Source of the DNA: Spirochaetales bacterium
Lineage (GTDB): Bacteria; Spirochaetota; Spirochaetia; Treponematales; UBA12059
Direction of reading: 5' to 3'
NCBI GenBank assembly: GCA_016928955.1
Contig: JAFGJV010000024.1
Span: 1-33,889, forward strand
Length of the DNA stretch: 33,889 nucleotides
Positions 19,353 through 28,845 of this stretch are shown here, piece after piece. Below the pieces are notes generated by a model. That model did not search any database and was not told the origin of the DNA. It saw only the letters and a program-made list of their open reading frames with translations. How positions within the stretch are numbered: position 1 is the stretch's first letter; each line of letters begins with the position of its first letter. The position numbers were made by a program, and so were the translations under genes.

Positions 19353-19874
19353 CTAGTCGCCTTCCTTGACAATCTCGATTTTGACGCCTTCAGGCGCGTC
19401 CTGTTCGGCCTTGGGCGGGATGGTCACGCGCAGAATGCCGTTCTTGAAGGACGCTTTGACCTCGGACTGGCTGAACTTGTCGGCAGGCACGTAATACTTC
19501 TGGCGCTCGATATCCTTCAGCTTGAGCCTGCGCTTGAAGTACCGCACGCCTTCTTCCGACACGTTTTCAAAGTCTATCCGGGCCGCGAACACCATGTAAT
19601 CGCCCTGGAAGGTCAGGCTGATATCCTTTTCGTCGAATCCCGCCAGGGCGAACTCGAACACCATGGACCGATCCGCCGTCATGAAGATGTTCATGGGAGG
19701 GTAGGAATAGGTCGGGTACCAGTCGGCGTTGTCGTCCTGCTCCGGGTGGAACCAGGGGCCGTGCGGCCGCCCAGGCCCAAAGCTGTCCCTGACCTGGTCG
19801 CCAATTTCCTTGGCCGCGTCGAAAATCTCGTCCAGCATGGATCCTATGTCCACGTACATGCGGTTGCCTTTCAT
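19353..19874 (-). CDS. Small heat-shock protein, Hsp20/alpha-crystallin family
   Basis: This 173-residue ATP-independent holdase chaperone is cytoplasmic. Residues 1-55 are a variable N-terminal arm rich in Asp, Pro and aromatic residues. From about residue 58 to 155 the alpha-crystallin domain is recognisable: MVFEFALAGFDEKDISLTF, YFKRRLKL, the YYVPADKFSQSEVKASFKNG segment, then ILRVTIPPK. A short C-terminal tail, VKIEIVKEGD, contains the I-x-I/V motif. The start at 19874 has AGGGGG a few nt upstream. It is transcribed alone from a promoter near 19983 with a leader of about 100 nt that can fold and pair with the ribosome-binding region. Confidence 0.92.
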   Translation of the reverse strand: MKGNRMYVDIGSMLDEIFDAAKEIGDQVRDSFGPGRPHGPWFHPEQDDNADWYPTYSYPPMNIFMTADRSMVFEFALAGFDEKDISLTFQGDYMVFAARIDFENVSEEGVRYFKRRLKLKDIERQKYYVPADKFSQSEVKASFKNGILRVTIPPKAEQDAPEGVKIEIVKEGD

Positions 19875-19976
19875 GGTTTCCCCCTTGAAAAGGCGTTTTG
19901 TTGTCCCTCCATACGGAGCGGACGCCGGCGGATCGATATGGCATCCGCCTTTTTTCGGCTTCCAATATCGGAAACC
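19875..19976 (-). promoter_or_regulatory. Structured hsp20 leader, possible RNA thermometer
   Basis: From the predicted start near 19976 the minus-strand RNA begins with GGTTTCC (19976-19970). It is exactly complementary to GGAAACC (19881-19875), which covers the end of the ribosome-binding site and the spacer before the ATG. GGTTTCC can instead pair locally with GGAAGCC, and two more hairpins follow (19949-19927 and around 19920-19900). Alternative folds that hide or free the start are plausible for a heat-shock gene. This is inference from base pairing only. Confidence 0.35.
19927..19955 (+). terminator. Plus-strand terminator inside the hsp20 leader
   Basis: GGCGGAT (19927-19933) and ATCCGCC (19943-19949), 7-bp stem with 9-nt loop, are followed by six T (19950-19955) on the plus strand. 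It points against hsp20, and no plus-strand gene ends here. On the minus strand the same hairpin is a leader structure. Confidence 0.6.
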
Positions 19977-19982
19977 GTTAAT

Positions 19983-19988
19983 ATTATA
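19983..19988 (-). promoter_or_regulatory. -10 box of the hsp20 promoter
   Basis: The minus strand reads TATAAT, a perfect sigma-70 -10 box, in an AT-rich patch. The best -35 is TTTTGT with a 16-nt spacer, a weak match. No CIRCE element is visible. Confidence 0.55.
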
Positions 19989-20070
19989 GTACGCACATTC
20001 AGCTACAAAAGCAAGGACAGTCCGGGTCCATTGATGAGTCTGCGCCCCAGCCTGACATGGTCTCTACGAT

Positions 20071-20097
20071 AAAAAAAGCCGCCCCGTTCGGGGCGGC
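20071..20097 (-). terminator. Rho-independent terminator of the 5'-nucleotidase gene
   Basis: GCCGCCCC (20078-20085), loop GTTC, and GGGGCGGC (20090-20097) form an 8-bp stem followed on the minus strand by seven T. It lies 20 nt past the stop. Confidence 0.93.
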
Positions 20098-20117
20098 AAA
20101 ACTGCGGGAAGCCAGGT

Positions 20118-21995
20118 TTACTTGGACACCCCGTAGATCATGGGGTAGTCCTTGACGCGGCCCTTAGCGGCCCAGTCCTCGGGAACCACCTTCCAGTTGT
20201 CGTCGCGGACCGGCGTAATGACGCCGGTCTGCTTCTCGAACCACTTGAGCATGTAATAGCGGAGGTCCTTGGTGGTGCTGGACGTGACCAGCTCCAGGTT
20301 CTTCAGGGCATCGGCATCCAGGCCCACGCCGCGGGTCAGGTGATAGCCGCCGCCGGAGCCGCGGTACGAGTTGATGGCCACCGAGTACGTCTTGGCCATG
20401 TCAAAGGGCGTGCCGTCGGCCATGGACAGGATGGTCACGCGGGAACCGGCGGGCTTGGACACGTCCACGATGTACTTGATGCCGGCCACACTGTCGTAGT
20501 TGTAGGGGCGCACGGTGGTGTCGTAGCTGTTGTAGCGGGCGTTGAATACCGGCTTGCCGTCTTTGTCCTTGGCGAAGGATATCAGGTTGTCGTCCGGCCC
20601 CTTCATCTGGTTGAACTGGTTGCCGTAGTTGTATTCCATGAATTTCTTGATCTGCTCGCCGGTCAGGTCCATGGTGTACAGGAAGTTTTCGTACTTGTAC
20701 AGGCTGAACATGTCGCGGACCTTGATGGTGCCGTCCGTGGTGGTGGGCAGGTACGCGTTCTGGTCCAGGGGCGCGGCAAAGGATATCTGGGCGGGTTTCA
20801 GGCCCATGGCCGGATCGTTGGTGATCTCCAGCTGTATCCTGTGGATTAGGTCGACAAAGGCGCTGTCGCCGAACAACGCGTCGTCCGAATGCATCTTGCC
20901 TTCCATCTTGCCAAGGGGTCGTTCCACCCAGGCCAGGAGTTCGGCTTTGTACGGCTCGAATTTCGCCATGAAGGTGGGATCTTCAGGGACGCCCTTCATG
21001 GGGACGAGCTCGCCGCTTATGTCCTTGTCCCAGGACTTGGTTTCCGTGTTCCAGCGCAGGGTCACGTCAACCACGGCTATGTTCTGGGCCCCGGCGTTGG
21101 CGCCGTATATCGGAACGATCTTGCCGTTCGGGTCCTTGACGTCCACGGTCTTGGTCTTGGCCACTGCGTCCCAGCCCGGACCGGACCAGCCCTGGTGGTC
21201 ATGACCCACAAAGATCATGTCAAAGCCGGCCACGCGCTCGGCCACCAGCTGGCTGGCGCTCTCGTTGCCGGGTGTGTCGGCGGTGGCGCCGCCGTAGGTC
21301 CAGTCCACGCCGGCGTGGAAGAGGCCTACCAGGAGATCGGGCTTCTCTTTGCTCTGGATGATCGGCACCCACTTTTTGGCTGTCTCGATCATGTCCAGCA
21401 CGTCCATGCCGGACCAGAACGCGTAGGGCAGCTGGTGGGTTATGCCGGGTTCGGTCAGGCCCAGGATGGCGATCTTGACACCCTGGCGGGTGATGATGGC
21501 GTAGGGCGGGAAGTAGGGCTCGCCCGTGTCCTCACGCACCACGTTGGCGCAGATGAAGGGCATGTTCAGCTCTTTGACCAGCTTGTCGTACACGGGATGG
21601 CCGGCCTCTATGTCGTGGTTGCCCACGGTGGCCACGTCGTAGTCCAGGAAGTTCAGCACCTCGGACCAGATGTGCGGAACATCGGTCTTCTCAAAGTTGT
21701 AGTAGTAGACGGTCGGCTGGCCCTGGAGGACGTCGCCGTCATCCATCAGTATGACCTCGCCCTCGGCCCGCTTCTGGGCCACAACGGTGGCAACCTGGGC
21801 CATGGATGTTGTCAACGGTTTCCCGGTAATGAAATCATACGGGAAAATGGCGCCGTGGATGTCCGTGGTCTCTATGAAGGTGAGCTTGAGCGGCGTTTCC
21901 GCGAATTTTTCAAATGGATGGGCGCAGGAGGCGAAGGCGACAATAATGAGCGCCGACGCCAGGATGGCATACGCCCCGCGAATAAACTTTCGCAT
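20118..21995 (-). CDS. Secreted 5'-nucleotidase/cyclic phosphodiesterase lipoprotein, UshA/CpdB-like
   Basis: This 625-residue enzyme is anchored outside the inner membrane. It has a lipoprotein signal with the lipobox FASC and Cys24 as the lipid site. The metallophosphatase domain shows the metal-binding motifs TDIHG (Asp45, His47), DDGD (Asp88), GNHD (125-128), His227 and GHDH (264-267). The C-terminal substrate-binding domain begins around residue 390 (AAPLDQNAYLP, FSLYKYENFLYTMDLTG). It hydrolyses extracellular nucleotides or 2',3'-cyclic nucleotides to nucleosides and phosphate. The family is broad and the exact substrate is unknown. GGAGG lies 5 nt before the ATG. It is a single gene with its own terminator, and the kinase operon upstream ends with a terminator at 22105-22140. 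Confidence 0.9.
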   Translation of the reverse strand: MRKFIRGAYAILASALIIVAFASCAHPFEKFAETPLKLTFIETTDIHGAIFPYDFITGKPLTTSMAQVATVVAQKRAEGEVILMDDGDVLQGQPTVYYYNFEKTDVPHIWSEVLNFLDYDVATVGNHDIEAGHPVYDKLVKELNMPFICANVVREDTGEPYFPPYAIITRQGVKIAILGLTEPGITHQLPYAFWSGMDVLDMIETAKKWVPIIQSKEKPDLLVGLFHAGVDWTYGGATADTPGNESASQLVAERVAGFDMIFVGHDHQGWSGPGWDAVAKTKTVDVKDPNGKIVPIYGANAGAQNIAVVDVTLRWNTETKSWDKDISGELVPMKGVPEDPTFMAKFEPYKAELLAWVERPLGKMEGKMHSDDALFGDSAFVDLIHRIQLEITNDPAMGLKPAQISFAAPLDQNAYLPTTTDGTIKVRDMFSLYKYENFLYTMDLTGEQIKKFMEYNYGNQFNQMKGPDDNLISFAKDKDGKPVFNARYNSYDTTVRPYNYDSVAGIKYIVDVSKPAGSRVTILSMADGTPFDMAKTYSVAINSYRGSGGGYHLTRGVGLDADALKNLELVTSSTTKDLRYYMLKWFEKQTGVITPVRDDNWKVVPEDWAAKGRVKDYPMIYGVSK

Positions 21996-22104: not shown

Positions 22105-22140
22105 AAAAGGAGCCCGAACTCAGGTTTGTCGGGAGGCTCC
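22105..22140 (-). terminator. Terminator of the kinase operon
   Basis: On the minus strand GGAG-CCT-CCCGA pairs with TCGGG-CTCC (a 9-bp stem with a 3-nt bulge) and is followed by TTTT, with a further T7 slightly downstream. The stem overlaps the last codons of the kinase gene. Confidence 0.6.
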
Positions 22141-23544
22141 TACCCAAGCGTTGATGGCGTCGGCCACGGCCTGCCGCTCGCGCGTGGACAGGGATCGGCC
22201 AAAGGTGACGGGCGACGATCCAAGGTCCACGGATAGCACTGAGTCAGTTTGCGGCTGCCTGCCCGCCCTGCCCGACGCCAGGTGGCAGGTCCCCAGGTCG
22301 GATAGTTCGCCCGAGCGGACTTTGACGACCACGTTGAACAGGTGTTCCTTGTACATATACCCGTTGGAGCGGTCCAGGACGAGTTCCACGGACCCGAGCT
22401 GGTCCTTGAGGGATTTCATGATTGTGGTTACGCCGGTTACCCAGAAGGGTATGGAAAACAGCGGGAAGAAGAACGGGGCCCTCATGCGCAGGGCCATGAA
22501 GGTCCAAAACGCGGTGAATGCCGTGAAGAAGAGCCCGAATCCCAGCCCTGCCAGGAGCTGGGGATTGAGCGGCGAGCCGGGCGGTATCCTCAGCGAAAAC
22601 GAGTCTCTGTCGCTCAGCATGGCCACGCGACTGGAGGACGGAAGGGTGGTTTTTGGTCTAGGCTCCCAGGCTACCTGCTGGTCCCGGCCTGACGCGGCGG
22701 CCGCCGGTATGCCATGGTCTGTCCGGGGTACCGGTAGGCCATGCCTCAGTATGGCTGCGGCCTCCTCCGGTGGCAGGGTGCGCAGGTCTTCATCCGGCTC
22801 CAGGTAGATACCAAGTACATGGGCAAGCCGCGGGGACAGCTCGACCAGGGCTCCTGGATCGGGTTTGAGGCCCTTCCGTGGCAGGTCGGAGGGGTGTACG
22901 CGGGTGAGGAGCTGGGCTGCCGTGGCCGCGGCGGCGTACAGGTCCGAGCGGACGCTGGCCCGTCCCGAAACCTGCTCCAGGGGCGCGTAGCCGGCCGAGC
23001 CGACCATGGTGGTCGTGTCGCGGTAGGCCAGCCGAACCGCGTCCTGGACGCCTGAAAAGTCCACCAGGGCTATGGAGCCGTCCGGCCTCAGGATGATGTT
23101 CTTGGGATTTATGTCCCGGTGGATCAGGGGCGGACGCAGGGAGTGAAGGTAGGCCAGGATGTCCAGGAGTTCGGCCAGCATGCGCTCTATGTCCGCTTCA
23201 GTCCAGCGCCGGCCAGCTTCCAGTTCCCTGGCCAGGCTGGTGCCAGGCACGCGTTCCATGACCAGGACCAGATACTGGCGCCTGTCGTCCTGCCAGCGGA
23301 ACGAGTCGACATAGCGCGGTATGGCCGGGTGTCTGACGGCCTTGAGGGCGGCAACCTCGCGCTCGAACAGGTCAAAGCTTTTCCAGTCGGGAAGGTCCCC
23401 GAGCGAAAGGGCCTTGACCACCAGCTCTGCTTGCCCGGTCGCCTGCGCGGACCCGTCCCTGGCAGTCCAGGTTTCCGCCCAGGGGCCCTGGCCCAGGCGT
23501 TCCAGCAGCTCATATCGACCGTTGAGAACCAGGGCGGCTTCCAT
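22120..23544 (-). CDS. Membrane-anchored Ser/Thr protein kinase
   Basis: This 474-residue Hanks-type kinase has residues 11-270 as the catalytic domain. The glycine loop is modified (GQGPWAETW), with Lys44 in VVKAL, Glu62 in FEREV, the catalytic loop HRDINPKN with Asp144 and Asn149, the metal site DFSG (Asp162, DFG variant), and AGYAPLEQ. All three essential residues are present, so activity is likely. After a linker of about 55 residues two membrane helices lie at about 329-351 and 357-376, followed by a cytoplasmic-looking C-terminal domain of about 95 residues without a recognised fold. The stop codon of the TPR gene directly abuts the ATG, and AGGA is upstream. As last gene of the six-gene operon it may phosphorylate products of its neighbours (inference). 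Confidence 0.85.
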
Positions 23545-24096
23545 TCAGTGTCCTTTACCGGGTCCTAGCTTGTGTGCACGTTCCGCGGCCCGGTCCCTGG
23601 ACGCCAGGGTACCGGCATCCGTGTCTCCTACGGCCATCAGCTCTTCGTACGTGTCACGGAGATTGAACCACGCGTCATAGTAGTCGTCTTTTGCCGAGAC
23701 GGCAGCCTCGAACAGTTCCCTGGCGCGGGCATAGCGCGCGGCCTGGAACATGAGCACGCCCAGGTTGTTCAGCGCCTCGGCGTGGGCGGGGTCTAGCTCA
23801 AGCGCCCGTTCGTATGAGCGGCGGGCCTGGTCGCTCTTGCCCAGCTCGAACCAGGCCAGGCCCAGGTTGCACAGCAGGTCTGGGGCCTCGGTTCCCAGCC
23901 GTAGGGCTTCCAGGAACAGGTTCTTGGCGTCCAGCGGCCTGCCGTCTTTCAGGCAGGCCAGGCCCTGGTTGAAAGCCAGGTCGGGCGACGCGGGATCCAG
24001 CTGGCGGGCGTTCTTGAAGTTTTCCTCCGCCTCATCCCACCGGCCTTCCGCCGCCAAGGCCTCACCCCGGCGCGCGTACTCCTCCGCGGTGGGCAT
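23545..24096 (-). CDS. TPR-repeat protein
   Basis: This 183-residue protein is made almost wholly of tetratricopeptide repeats, about four between residues 1 and 145. Typical positions are GRWDEAEENFKNARQLDP, LGLAWFELGKSDQARRSYER and LNNLGVLMFQAARYARAREL. There is no signal peptide, so it is cytoplasmic and probably a scaffold for protein contacts. The start is 3 nt after the stop of the membrane-protein gene and it ends immediately at the kinase start, so tight translational coupling to the kinase suggests a joint function. The C-terminal 35 residues are outside the repeats. Confidence 0.85.
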   Translation of the reverse strand: MPTAEEYARRGEALAAEGRWDEAEENFKNARQLDPASPDLAFNQGLACLKDGRPLDAKNLFLEALRLGTEAPDLLCNLGLAWFELGKSDQARRSYERALELDPAHAEALNNLGVLMFQAARYARARELFEAAVSAKDDYYDAWFNLRDTYEELMAVGDTDAGTLASRDRAAERAHKLGPGKGH

Positions 24097-24099
24097 TTC

Positions 24100-24636
24100 T
24101 CAGCTTAGGCCAAGAAGGCCGGGCAGATAGGTACCCGCCAAAATCAGGGCAACGGCGGGCAAAAGCACCAGGACCAGCACGTCCACCGGCCACCTGGCTT
24201 TTTTGGCACCTGACAGGGCATTGGCCAGGAAAATGACCACAACGCCTGTCACAAAGCTGATGACGGGATAGGACAGGAAGCTGACGCTCATGGCCGGCTC
24301 CCTGAGCCAGGCCATGAAGCCTATGTCGAGAGACAGCGAAAAATACACAAAACTCACCAGGTAGCCCAAGAGGATGGGCGTGTAGCGCTGGTCGCTGCCG
24401 AAAAACACCCGCAGGAACAGCAAGGCGTAAAAATACACCACCAAGGCCACGGGCGACCCGAACGAACCCAGCGACTGGCTCAGAAAGTCCTGCAGCTGGG
24501 GCAGGCCGAGCATTTTGAGGACGGGCGGCGCCAGCAGAATGAAGGCCAGCCAGCCTATAACGTTGAAAATTTTCTGACGGATCCCGCCGGCCTGGCGCGC
24601 CGCCGGGAGGTCCCGCCCCTGGATTTGGTCGCTCAT
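24100..24636 (-). CDS. Multi-pass membrane protein of unknown function
   Basis: I do not recognise the family. The 178-residue protein has a short polar N-terminus of about 22 residues and four or five hydrophobic helices (about 25-45, 60-80, 86-105, 117-140 and 150-172). The loops are short, and one carries the charged patch FFGSDQRY. The start at 24636 has GAGGAG 6 nt upstream. In the operon it lies between the phosphodiesterase gene (55 nt upstream) and the TPR gene (3 nt downstream). A Yip1-like or other small membrane protein is possible but not supported by a motif I can see. Confidence 0.65.
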   Translation of the reverse strand: MSDQIQGRDLPAARQAGGIRQKIFNVIGWLAFILLAPPVLKMLGLPQLQDFLSQSLGSFGSPVALVVYFYALLFLRVFFGSDQRYTPILLGYLVSFVYFSLSLDIGFMAWLREPAMSVSFLSYPVISFVTGVVVIFLANALSGAKKARWPVDVLVLVLLPAVALILAGTYLPGLLGLS

Positions 24637-24691
24637 CAACTTCTCCTCATGGGAACACGTGAATGCGCGTAGGGATAGCCTGGCTAGGACC

Positions 24692-25465
24692 CTACGAATT
24701 TCCTTGTATCATATGCGGCCGGTTTGAAATAACCCCGTCGCAGCCAAGCGCCAGAACCCTGCCGGCTTCGTCCGCGTCGTCCACGGTCCAGGTCAGGACG
24801 GGACGCCCGCCAAACGCGCGCTTGAGGGACATGCCAGCCCGGCGTACCATGACATGCTCCGGTTTGAGAAAGTCCGACGACGACAGCCAGCGGCCCTCTC
24901 CCTTGCGCAGATACCAGGGCAGTTCCGGCGACGAGCAGTACAAGGTGCCCGTTGGTATGGCCGGCGCCAGGCTTTTGAGGCGCTTAAGCGCTATGGGGTT
25001 GAACGACGATACCGCCACGCAGTCGGCGCCCAGGCCCATGCTGGCAAGCAATGTGGCCAGGGCGGCCTCCAGTCCTATGTCGGCTGCCTTTGGAGCCTTT
25101 ATTTCTATATCAACATACATGGCCGGGGTAAATTCCTCCAGCACGTCTGACAAAAGAGGCGGGCGTTCCCCCGCGTAGCGCTTGTCCTTCCAGGAGCCCA
25201 CGTCCACGGCGGCAATGTCTTTCCATTGACTGGCCTCTATATGGACGTTGGTACCCGGCGCTACCCGGGCCGTGTTCCCGTCGTGGATGACGACGATCTT
25301 GCCGTCCGCGCTCAGGTGGATGTCCAGCTCTATGCCCGGTATGCCGTGGTCGCGCGCCAGGCGGAAGGCAGCCATGGTGTTCTCGGGAGCCTCTGACGAC
25401 AGGCCCCGGTGGGCAAACCACAGGGGCCGCGGCCGGTCCGGATAGAGAGGCAGTCGCTTTGCCAC
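24692..25465 (-). CDS. ugpQ: Glycerophosphodiester phosphodiesterase
   Basis: This cytoplasmic GDPD-family enzyme of 257 residues hydrolyses glycerophosphodiesters to glycerol 3-phosphate and an alcohol. The motifs are clear: FAHRG with His19, EAPENT, the metal-binding GIELDIHLSADG (Glu46, Asp48), HDG with His61, and VDIEIK. There is no signal peptide. The start is GTG at 25465, 2 nt after the stop of the coiled-coil gene, with GGAGG 7 nt upstream. An open frame reaches 25810, but that part overlaps the coiled-coil gene and is Arg/Gly-rich shadow sequence. Glycerol 3-phosphate made here could feed the GlpA-like enzyme at 14650, though that link is inference. Confidence 0.9.
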   Translation of the reverse strand: MAKRLPLYPDRPRPLWFAHRGLSSEAPENTMAAFRLARDHGIPGIELDIHLSADGKIVVIHDGNTARVAPGTNVHIEASQWKDIAAVDVGSWKDKRYAGERPPLLSDVLEEFTPAMYVDIEIKAPKAADIGLEAALATLLASMGLGADCVAVSSFNPIALKRLKSLAPAIPTGTLYCSSPELPWYLRKGEGRWLSSSDFLKPEHVMVRRAGMSLKRAFGGRPVLTWTVDDADEAGRVLALGCDGVISNRPHMIQGNS

Positions 25466-25467
25466 GG

Positions 25468-25935
25468 TCAGGCCTCCGGGTTGCCGCCGCCCAGCTTGCG
25501 CTTGAGGGCGGCCAGTTCGTCGTCGGCTCCAAGAGACGCCAGGCCCTGGTTGACCGAGGCCGACGTGTCGCCAAGCGCCTCGCCCGTGGCTACCTGGAGC
25601 TCGGCCAGGAGGAGGTCCACGTCGACCGAGCGCTCCTGGGCTCTCAGGATGGGCAATTGCTCCTTCATGCGGGCGATTTTGGCGATCAGGCTGTCCTTTT
25701 CTCCCGACAGTGCTGTCCTTCGCGCGGCCAGTTCGGCCACCTTGGCGCGGGCGCCTGCTTCCAGGTCGCTTGCTCCCTTGCTGGCGGCCAGCTCGACGCG
25801 CTTGTTCCACAGGGCCAGTTCCTCGTCCAGCGCGGCCAGGTCACGCTCGGTGGTCTTGAGCGTGGTCAGGAATTCCAGCACGTAGGCGCGCGCGTCGGAT
25901 ACGGATAGTCCCCGGAGGTCGGTATCGTCGCTCAT
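25468..25935 (-). CDS. Coiled-coil protein, weakly PspA-like
   Basis: This 155-residue acidic cytoplasmic protein is mostly helical. Residues about 15-110 form a long coiled coil rich in Ala, Leu, Glu and Arg. Near the C-terminus DELAALKRKLGGG resembles the end of PspA/IM30 proteins, but the full PspA domain is not recognisable, so I give no family. The start is uncertain: ATG at 25935 is preferred, and GTG at 25944 would overlap the upstream stop. Neither has a strong ribosome-binding site. It lies 5 nt after the CsgG-like gene and 2 nt before the phosphodiesterase gene. Confidence 0.7.
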   Translation of the reverse strand: MSDDTDLRGLSVSDARAYVLEFLTTLKTTERDLAALDEELALWNKRVELAASKGASDLEAGARAKVAELAARRTALSGEKDSLIAKIARMKEQLPILRAQERSVDVDLLLAELQVATGEALGDTSASVNQGLASLGADDELAALKRKLGGGNPEA

Positions 25936-25940
25936 GGCCG

Positions 25941-27251
25941 TCACATCTTAAAGGTAACGCCGGCGCCCAGCTGCCAGCCGCCATAGCTGGGGAACAGCCC
26001 GGTCCAGCCAAAGAGGTAGTCTGCCTGGACTTCCGCGAACAGCTTCATGTCCCGCGTGACCAGGTAGGACACAAAGGCCCCGGCGGAAACGCCGATATGG
26101 GTGAACCAGGGATCGTCGTCCGTGGAGAAGGACTCCTCCAGAATGCGCACCAGGGCGTTGGAGCCCATGGCTATGCCGCCGCGCACGCCTATCTCCAGCC
26201 TGCGCATGTACGTGACGTACTCGGCTCCGATCACGGCGTTGAGCGGGAGGTAAAGGTCCAAGTCCGTGAGCATCTGGGCGGCCAGGTAGGGCTTGACGTT
26301 GTAGAATCCGCGGGTGGCCTCAAAGCGGGCGCCAATAACAAAGCTGGAACCCATGGATGATTCAAAATACTGGTAGCTATGGCCGTACAGGGCCAGGTCG
26401 GCGCCGGCGCGGGGCAGTTCCCGTAGCTGGGTGTCCTTGGCCGGCTGTATGCCGCTGTACAGGATGATGGCCGTGGACACCTCTGTGCCTACTTCCTTGA
26501 TGAGGAGCAGGCCGACTTCCTTCTCGTCCTTGTAGCCTTCATACTCTGATTTTTCTATGACCAGGTATTCGTCGCCCTTCTGGATGCCCATGTTCGAGCC
26601 CAGCTCGATCTTGACCTCTCCGCCGGTCATGCCGAGCACGCGCGTGTGGAGCGTGAACGCGGGAATGCTGCGGATTTCGTACTGCAGCTGCATGGGTATG
26701 GAGTCTATGGCAGACTGTATGGCCTTGAAGTCCGTCTCCCTGCTGGAACCGAAGGTCTCCACGTCAGCTATGCCGATGAGGGTGCCGTCGGCCACGTCTA
26801 TGAAGCTGACGGTGGTCTTTATGTCCGCCTGCCACTCCTTGCCGTCCACGAAGGCCAGGTTGTACGAGGTGACCACGGGCACGGCCACGATGAACGCCCC
26901 GATCAGCCGGTTGAAGTCCGCCTCGGTAAGGAGCGCCTCGCCGAACTGGTATTCTTCCGGCAGTACGAAGTTTTCCTCGTTCATCTGGCGCAGGATGCTG
27001 ATGAACTGGTCCACGCTGGAACTGGAGAAGCGCTGCTGCATACCGATGATGTTGAAGCGTCCCAGATCCAGGAAAACTTTCTGGATCTCTATGTCGATGG
27101 TGCCCAGGGTTTCAAGCGGGATGTCCCAGCCGTAATACCCGAGGGAGAAAATGGCCACGTCCTTGCGCTCGCTGACCGTTGGCTGGCCAAAGGCGGCGAC
27201 TGAAGCGACAAGTACGAGGGCGACGAGGGCAAAAGCCTTCCTGGATTTCAT
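25941..27251 (-). CDS. CsgG/FlgT-like exported protein with C-terminal outer-membrane barrel
   Basis: This 436-residue protein has a Sec signal peptide (KSRKAFALVALVLVASVAAFG, cleavage likely near residue 22). Residues about 30-280 look like a CsgG/FlgT-type domain, with DVAIFSLGYYG, LGRFNIIG, TTVSFIDVADGTLIG and then GIQKGDEYLVIEKSEYEG. From about 290 the sequence alternates in barrel-like strands and ends in LGAGVTFKM, a plausible outer-membrane insertion signal. It is probably an outer-membrane protein with a periplasmic domain, but its role is unknown and the domain call is by pattern only. GGAGG is 5 nt before the ATG. It is first of the six-gene operon that ends with the Ser/Thr kinase. 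Confidence 0.7.
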   Translation of the reverse strand: MKSRKAFALVALVLVASVAAFGQPTVSERKDVAIFSLGYYGWDIPLETLGTIDIEIQKVFLDLGRFNIIGMQQRFSSSSVDQFISILRQMNEENFVLPEEYQFGEALLTEADFNRLIGAFIVAVPVVTSYNLAFVDGKEWQADIKTTVSFIDVADGTLIGIADVETFGSSRETDFKAIQSAIDSIPMQLQYEIRSIPAFTLHTRVLGMTGGEVKIELGSNMGIQKGDEYLVIEKSEYEGYKDEKEVGLLLIKEVGTEVSTAIILYSGIQPAKDTQLRELPRAGADLALYGHSYQYFESSMGSSFVIGARFEATRGFYNVKPYLAAQMLTDLDLYLPLNAVIGAEYVTYMRRLEIGVRGGIAMGSNALVRILEESFSTDDDPWFTHIGVSAGAFVSYLVTRDMKLFAEVQADYLFGWTGLFPSYGGWQLGAGVTFKM

Positions 27252-27492
27252 GGGTCCTCCCTGTGGGCGCTAGAAACCTCAGCGGGTTTTCTGCGCGCTA
27301 CTCGTTCCGGTCAAAAATCATCTCAGGCGCGCACGTTTTTAGCTACGTGATGATGCCTGGTGACAGGCAAGCCCAGCTAAATCTTGTCCGAATCATAGCA
27401 CGCTGTCAATGAATATGCAGGGGGTGGGCGGCTCTTTGCCATAGGAGAGCCGGGCCTTGCGCGGTTCGTGCCGGGCGGTCTATCGTTCGGTC
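27252..27492. promoter_or_regulatory. Divergent region between the CsgG-like gene and mnmE
   Basis: Three inverted repeats lie in the leader of the minus-strand gene: an imperfect AGAAACC/GGTTTTCT pair flanked by GCGC (27267-27297), CACGT/ACGTG (27332-27349), and TGCCTG/CAGGCA (27354-27369). On the minus strand TTGACA (27409-27404) is a possible -35 without a good -10. No strong promoter for mnmE was found. Confidence 0.4.
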
Positions 27493-28845
27493 ATGGGAAC
27501 GGGCTATCTGGACAGCGACGACGACATAGCGGCTCTGGCGACGCCTCAGGGAACGGGCGCCCTGGCCGTGACGCGGATTGCGGGACCGGGCTGCGTGGAG
27601 CGGCTGGCCCGGGTTTTTTCCCGGCCGGACGTGCTCCGCTCGGCCGCCGGCTATGCCGCCGTGTACGGCAAGGTCCTGGACTCCGCCTTAGTACCCGTGG
27701 ACGAGGTCGTGGCCGTTGTGTTCCGCTCGCCCCGCAGCTACACGGGCCAGGACGGGGTGGACATCATGGGCCACGGCGGCATGGCAAGTCCTGCCCGCGT
27801 CATGGACGCTCTTATGGCCGCGGGTTTCAGGCTGGCCCTGCCCGGGGAATTCACCTTCAGGGCTTTTGCCTCCGGCCGGATAGACCTGGCCCGGGCAGAG
27901 GCCGTAGACGAACTGGTGCGGGCCCGCACGGCGGAAGCCCAGGCGGACGCCCTGGAGCGCCTGGGTGGAGGCCTGTCCAGGCAGCTGGACGAACTCATAG
28001 GGGAGCTGGTCCGCCTGGCCGCGGCCTGCGAGCTGCGCTTGGATTACGGCGAGGACGAGCATCCCGAGGATTTTGCGGAGGCGCTCCCGGCTCTCGGAGC
28101 CGTGCGGGAGCGCTGCGCCGAACTGGCTGACAGTTACGCCGTCGGGCGCCTGCGCGACCGAGGCGCAAGGGTCGCCTTGGCAGGCAAGACCAACGCGGGC
28201 AAGTCGTCGCTCTTTAACCGGCTCTTAAAAGAAGAACGGGCCCTGGTGTCCGCTCACCCGGGCACCACCCGCGACTATCTGGAGGCGGAGCTGGACCTGG
28301 GCGGCGTGCCCGTGGTGCTGGTGGATACCGCCGGCCTCAGGGTCACCAGCGATCCGGTGGAAGAGGAAGGGGTCAGGCGCACCAGGCTCATGGCCGAAGG
28401 CGCGGATTTGGTCGTGTACGTGGCCGACGGCAGGCACGCGCTCGATGAAGACGACTATGCGGTACTGGCCGCCCACCCGGGCGCCGTACTTGTGTGGAAC
28501 AAGATTGACGATCCGGAGGCGCTCTCGGCTCCCGCGGACTGGCTTCCGGTATCAGCGCGGGACGGCACGGGCGAGCGTCAGCTGGGAGCCGCGATCGCCC
28601 GGGCGCTGGGAGCGTCGGCCGGAGAGGCGCGGCTCCGCGTGGCCAGCAAGCGGCAGCACGACGCCCTGGCCCGGGCCCGGGACGCCCTGACCGACGCCGA
28701 GCGGGCCTTCCTGGACGGCGAGCCTTTGGACGCCGTGGCCGTTGATCTGGCAGTGGCCCTGGACGCTTTGCGCGGAATCGGGGGCAAAACCGGCTCCGAG
28801 GACGTGTTGGAAGCCTTGTTCAGCAATTTTTGCGTGGGAAAGTGA
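27493..28845 (+). CDS. mnmE: tRNA modification GTPase MnmE
   Basis: This 450-residue GTPase works with MnmG to place a carboxymethylaminomethyl group on the wobble uridine of certain tRNAs. The N-terminal folate-binding domain begins [20 protein letters not shown]. The G domain has the P-loop GKTNAGKSS (231-239), the switch region GTTRDY, and DTAGLR with an NKID base motif. The protein ends FCVGK, with Cys447 in the family's C-x-G-K motif. The start at 27493 fits the family although no Shine-Dalgarno is visible. TTG at 27457, behind AGGAG, is an alternative that would add 12 residues. It is followed 1 nt later by mnmG. Confidence 0.95.

Follow-up and report, generated by a model that had tools for sequence, protein, structure and literature searches.

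The window analysed here, a stretch of 33,889 nucleotides (nt) forming positions 1 to 33,889 of contig JAFGJV010000024.1, belongs to a spirochaete genome assembly of 2.9 Mb (GCA_016928955.1, 99% complete) and carries a run of six closely packed genes on its minus strand. They encode an outer-membrane protein, a short protein read here as a divergent relative of PspA/Vipp1, a cytosolic glycerophosphodiesterase (GDPD), an inner-membrane protein, a TPR protein and a Ser/Thr kinase. The run is very probably a composite of two older gene sets that were joined in a single family of relatives, f1, which includes the window; this reading is drawn from the gene order in relatives, where the pieces occur apart. 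The pair formed by the PspA-like and GDPD genes is the oldest and most conserved part of the run, the kinase is an often-missing passenger, and the six-gene arrangement as a whole is lineage-specific. The six open reading frames (ORFs) were intact, and the gaps between them (5, 2, 55, 3 and 0 nt in 5' to 3' gene order) agreed with the spacing of 0-55 nt given in a preliminary description of this DNA. The genes of the run are:

25941-27251, minus strand: outer-membrane protein gene, with a signal peptide, a predicted FlgT-like periplasmic part and a predicted eight-strand barrel
25468-25935, minus strand: short PspA/Vipp1-like gene (155 amino acids), with the alpha1-alpha2 hairpin and a C-terminal LAALKRK
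24692-25465, minus strand: cytosolic GDPD gene of the UgpQ type, with a GTG start and the HRG, ELD and HD motifs
24100-24636, minus strand: inner-membrane protein gene, with several transmembrane stretches and no Pfam family
23545-24096, minus strand: cytosolic TPR protein gene
22120-23544, minus strand: Hanks-type Ser/Thr kinase gene, with intact catalytic motifs and a transmembrane stretch near residues 334-352

Gene order was compared across the window, 40 loci surrounding the outer-membrane gene, 40 others surrounding the PspA-like gene or the kinase gene, and 7 from elsewhere in the class; families and genera (f1, g12, etc.) are named as in the genome search tool. Adjacency of the PspA-like and GDPD genes was seen in 44 of 54 genomes, the 44 being spread over five families (f1 21/21, f2 1/1, f4 13/15, f5 8/12 and f12 1/2). 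The count takes in the genomes in which adjacency could be judged, and the f13 matches were excluded as being full-length PspA itself. No adjacent pair occurred in f8 (two genomes) or f15 (one genome). The two genes were separated by 2 nt in the window and, across 24 measured loci, by -4 to 17 nt, and they stayed together away from mnmE in f5 and in part of f4. In f5, a MurJ-type gene (named by eye) was often the next one after the pair.

The outer-membrane gene preceded the PspA-like gene in 25 genomes (f1 18/18, f2 1/1, f4 6/16) and lay about 5 kb from it in f12. The Treponemataceae-type genomes of f3 carried the outer-membrane protein with neither the PspA-like gene nor the kinase. Beside mnmE was the outer-membrane gene, in f1, f4 and f5, or else the PspA-like gene, in f12 and some of f4. 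The TPR and kinase genes were adjacent in 10/10 genomes of f4 and in 8/16 of f1, the other eight f1 genomes having a TPR gene with no adjoining kinase. The f4 TPR-kinase pairs were found apart from the outer-membrane and PspA-like genes, most of them adjoining hydrogenase-type genes, and the kinase shared a locus with the outer-membrane protein only in f1, where seven genomes, including that of the window, had a run ending in the kinase. A kinase match at E <= 1e-30 was missing in 13 of 23 f1 genomes, some of which are incomplete assemblies. Two pairs are strongly linked, PspA-like with GDPD and TPR with kinase. Since the order and closeness of parts of the run were kept in relatives, its packing is not due to chance. 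Conservation of the neighbourhood across spirochaetes had been proposed as one check on the preliminary description, and scattering of the genes as one refutation: the two pairs hold and the six-gene run does not, so that the refutation applies in part. A single six-gene module was rejected, as the gene order in relatives breaks the run.

The short protein had been described as a coiled-coil protein; its model is a predicted helical hairpin, and the protein is relabelled here as PspA/Vipp1-like from its matches in NCBIfam, Pfam, the PDB and Foldseek. PspA was the commonest match in NCBIfam (18 of 22 members of the short family) and PspA_IM30 the commonest in Pfam (11 of 22), the PspA match of the window protein spanning residues 16-98. 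When the whole PDB was searched with the profile of the short family, PspA/Vipp1 filled the first eight places (best E-value 3.6e-5), and the two best alignments ran through the hairpin and also took in the LK motif at the C-terminus. Genome scans with this profile also matched the Pfam-scored PspA genes in genomes G316 and G327. Against a spirochaete PspA the profile reached 20.3 bits, and it did not exceed 3.2 bits in 60 column shuffles that preserved the heptads. In the Foldseek search of the predicted helical hairpin, Vipp1 and PspA led and ESCRT-III proteins came next, all with E-values above 0.01.

Two elements of PspA/Vipp1 (IM30) were recognized in the short protein. The alpha1-alpha2 hairpin, with the shared pattern W...LA.KG..DL.., corresponded to model helices 12-53 and 56-103 (about 12-103) and aligned to PspA 44-126. 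The C-terminal LxxLK of alpha5 was present as a motif of the LAALKR / LEELKR type in 26 of 26 members and aligned with DDELAALK of Vipp1. By contrast, the short protein has 155 residues against about 235, and the amphipathic membrane helix alpha0 has no counterpart: the start of full-length PspA (MGIFDRLKTVI) is missing, and the members begin near PspA residue 30-40. The alpha3-alpha4 linker is shortened and not kept whole, a gap of about 35 residues being needed in the alignment with PspA/Vipp1. The setting also differs from that of the Psp operon, as the short gene has GDPD for a partner in place of pspB/pspC, full-length PspA has a gene of its own, and none of pspB, pspC and pspF was found among the neighbours that could be identified for the short gene. 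The short protein is read here as a divergent relative of PspA/Vipp1 (bacterial ESCRT-III) by descent; with alpha0 and the alpha3-alpha4 region missing, the curated rule leaves it outside PF04012.

Additionally, the short gene was found together with full-length PspA. Among 99 relatives, 65 had the short gene and all 65 of these had full-length PspA, which was present in 72 of the 99. Neither gene was found in family f3 among these relatives, apart from one weak sub-threshold match (G091). In a sample of the phylum (n=296), PspA was present in every genome with a true short gene (14/14) and in 47 genomes overall. The full-length PspA of the source genome is located at G000:C47:57346-58005. In nine genomes (G036, G033, G077, G050, G086, G095, G053, G044 and G030) the short gene and full-length PspA were on one contig, about 11-12 kb apart.

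The third gene of the run had been labelled a glycerophosphodiesterase, and this label was borne out. The protein is cytosolic and scored 130.7 bits with PF03009 (cut-off 23.6). The HRG and HD motifs were present in 24/24 loci and ELD in 23/24. As in cytosolic GDPDs of the UgpQ type, the protein matched the PRK09454 model (E 1.2e-37) and has no signal peptide; however, its bit score was under the NCBIfam equivalog cut-off, and its gene neighbours differ. The most likely start is the GTG at 25465, since this is where homology sets in and since the longer ORF, which runs to 25810, would overlap with the gene before it; the extension is most likely mechanical.

The outer-membrane protein has 436 residues and is exported, with a signal peptide. 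Its model predicts an OmpA-type C-terminal barrel, with eight strands within residues 285-435 (about 285-436) and a match to OmpA with Z 13.9 and a root-mean-square deviation (rmsd) of 2.7 over 135 residues. The periplasmic part (about 28-280) likely adopts a FlgT fold in the model: FlgT was its top Foldseek match (E 1.3e-9), and the comparison by VIA gave Z 10.3-10.7 with an rmsd of about 9, much of residues 35-119 having a predicted local distance difference test score (pLDDT) below 50. FlgT belongs to the flagellar H-ring; the window protein differs from it by the extra eight-strand barrel and by the absence of flagellar genes among the identified neighbours of its gene. The name of CsgG-like barrel protein given to it previously did not hold. 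CsgG appeared only weakly in the Foldseek list (E 1.6e-3), and no Pfam match to CsgG (PF03783) was obtained anywhere in the genome, although control genomes did give matches, and the CsgG identity was rejected for this reason. A search of PDB sequences with the alignment of the outer-membrane protein gave no match.

Some other genes were observed around the outer-membrane gene. In genus g12 of f3 it stands at the head of three consecutive lipoprotein-type genes, and the same three lie near it in f4 and in some f1 genomes. This trio consists of an LPP20-like gene, a DUF6175-like gene and one unassigned gene (L080, L081, L082 and f4 loci such as L062:7271-10758), and the DUF6175-like lipoprotein gene has a homologue in the source genome at G000:C52:97215-98261. 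In some genomes of genus g5 (L045, L046, L047 and L049), a gene resembling the Rex redox repressor, named by eye, was located immediately upstream of the outer-membrane gene, between it and mnmE.

The membrane protein gene, for which no Pfam family was matched, was found only in f1, between GDPD and TPR and always before the TPR gene (15/15). The kinase corresponded to its earlier label of membrane kinase: it has a transmembrane stretch, scored 86.8 bits with PF00069 (cut-off 31.7), and the VAIK-type lysine, HRDxNPKN and DFSG were present in 5/5 aligned sequences. Its C-terminal 180 residues (window 22123-22662), comprising a membrane stretch and a soluble part, gave no Pfam match and were conserved in relatives. 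The best match of the kinase domain was the kinase part of a PASTA-kinase model; unlike PknB and other PASTA-type kinases, the window protein showed no PASTA repeats, and carries the membrane stretch and the C-terminal part described above. The source genome has a second Ser/Thr kinase gene (G000:C58:23885-24631) with a better score (PF00069 E 2.3e-56).

The second gene set probably reaches beyond the boundary drawn in the preliminary description, into window 19353-21995, because in the window, as in other genomes, the kinase is followed by a nucleotidase gene and a small-heat-shock-like gene. The nucleotidase probably belongs to this set, since it follows the TPR-kinase pair in several genomes. 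The order TPR, kinase, nucleotidase and small heat shock was found away from the outer-membrane, PspA-like and GDPD genes in G038 (f4), and the TPR-kinase pair with the nucleotidase likewise in G006 (f1). In nine f4 loci (L127, L128, L130-L135 and L140), the TPR-kinase pair was beside hydrogenase / NADH-dehydrogenase-type genes, named by eye. The features flanking the run in the window are:

20118-21995, minus strand: exported 2',3'-cyclic nucleotidase / 5'-nucleotidase-type gene, starting 124 nt downstream of the kinase
19353-19874, minus strand: small-heat-shock-like gene after the nucleotidase, named by eye from its sequence with no family search run
27252-27456, no strand: intergenic region separating the run from the divergent mnmE
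27457-28845, plus strand: mnmE, divergent from the cluster, as is mnmG

No consensus promoter was found in the scan of the region, including the divergent intergenic region, and no terminator was found in the scan 3' of the kinase (fold z-score 0.06).

Several of the results weigh against PspA descent for the short protein and a functional tie to PspA. The short genes of relatives scored about 19-29 bits with PF04012, whose curated cut-off is 33.9 bits, and the window protein was not listed; no other Pfam family reached its cut-off either. The Foldseek E-values were above 0.01, VIA-align could not separate the hairpin from other helical hairpins, which are common and many of them unrelated, and when the short family was aligned by hhalign to six local PspA sequences, a small number, the probability was a weak 26%. 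The PspA-like gene is not adjacent to full-length PspA, the distance being about 12 kb in many f4 genomes. The co-occurrence tallies count genomes and not independent events, with about three joint absences (f3, G066 and G081) that are perhaps independent. The low Pfam scores, the commonness of helical hairpins and the weak hhalign result could be explained if the second gene encoded an ordinary coiled coil of other origin, next to a housekeeping GDPD, with the neighbours held together only by operon structure beside mnmE. This is unlikely, however, as PspA/Vipp1 came first in three libraries (Pfam, NCBIfam and PDB) and in Foldseek, the match takes in the C-terminal LK motif and is lost in the heptad-keeping shuffles, and the PspA-like-GDPD pair remains intact away from mnmE.

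The first three genes might instead serve chiefly the outer membrane, with the FlgT/OmpA-like protein as a partner of the lipoproteins resembling LPP20 and DUF6175, and with PspA-like and GDPD as bystanders. The lipoprotein-type genes led by the outer-membrane gene in g12, and found nearby in f4 and some f1 genomes, favour this explanation, which is nevertheless quite unlikely: the PspA-like gene was directly downstream in every f1 genome scored, and even f12 keeps the outer-membrane gene within about 5 kb of it. The preliminary description had proposed one module: a sensing path made up of the outer-membrane protein and the kinase, with the TPR and coiled-coil proteins as adaptors. Its tight gaps, the intact catalytic motifs and the seven f1 genomes with a terminal kinase agree with it. 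We consider it very unlikely, since the kinase and the outer-membrane protein share a locus in f1 only, most of the 13 f1 genomes with no kinase match still keep the first three genes, the TPR-kinase pair of f4 is located elsewhere, eight f1 genomes have no adjoining kinase, and f3 retains the outer-membrane protein with neither the kinase nor the PspA-like gene. Its more general statements stand: the cluster, parts of which are conserved, reaches from the outer membrane to the cytoplasm, includes a lipid head-group enzyme and is tightly packed, and the literature search found no described system of this composition.

The best explanation as a whole, a composite run whose first set tunes PspA in envelope upkeep together with GDPD, seems to us evenly poised between right and wrong. 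Set A would comprise the outer-membrane protein, the short PspA-like protein and the cytosolic GDPD, divergent from mnmE-mnmG, with a role in envelope upkeep. Set B would comprise the TPR protein and the Ser/Thr kinase, often followed by the exported nucleotidase and the small-heat-shock-like gene, and would have joined set A in one family, with the family-specific membrane protein placed between the two. In Vipp1 filaments the hairpins stack, each alpha5 lies across the tip of a neighbouring subunit's hairpin and binds there, and alpha0 binds the membrane (PMC11919738). Because the short protein keeps the hairpin and alpha5, the ESCRT-III filament contact, but has neither the membrane helix nor the alpha3-alpha4 linker, it may bind polymers of full-length PspA, at their ends or sides, and cap or tune them instead of coating the membrane. 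This capping mechanism is put forward tentatively and is rather doubtful. The GDPD, probably produced from one transcript with the PspA-like protein, would recycle glycerophosphodiesters freed from damaged or remodelled phospholipid, and the membrane protein and the TPR-kinase pair, where present, may add control. The analysis shows the gene boundaries, the protein families, the conservation of the pairs and the co-occurrence with PspA; binding to PspA, capping and any regulation by the kinase are what we infer.

A partly comparable case is that of enterococci, in which gdpD mutations act jointly with liaF mutations in envelope stress (PMC12641126). The likeness is that of an envelope-stress system and a GDPD that would act in the same membrane phenotype; however, the enterococcal mutations are in separate pathways and not in a gene pair (PMC12641126), and LiaFSR has a two-component system, of which there is none here. 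Glycerophosphodiesterases go unmentioned in the main text of two surveys of PspA gene neighbourhoods (PMC11237479, PMC9239133), possibly because the short form falls under the Pfam cut-off. None of the papers found to name both GDPD and phage shock protein describes such a pair, and the search found no paper joining PspA, GDPD and spirochaetes. The PspA/Vipp1 kind itself is known, and what is new here is a short PspA paralogue with a steady GDPD partner.

These results may have a wider meaning for the class, in which a PspA paralogue free of the membrane helix would control ESCRT-III-like PspA polymers, be co-produced with a lipid head-group hydrolase and, in one family, come under a TPR-Ser/Thr-kinase switch; in this full form the proposal is unlikely. 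PspA/Vipp1 repairs membranes by polymerising, and how bacteria stop or tune the polymers is an open question. A natural, conserved short form that has the contact parts only, is always accompanied by full-length PspA in the same genome and is paired with a lipid enzyme would provide a ready test case for the control of PspA polymers.

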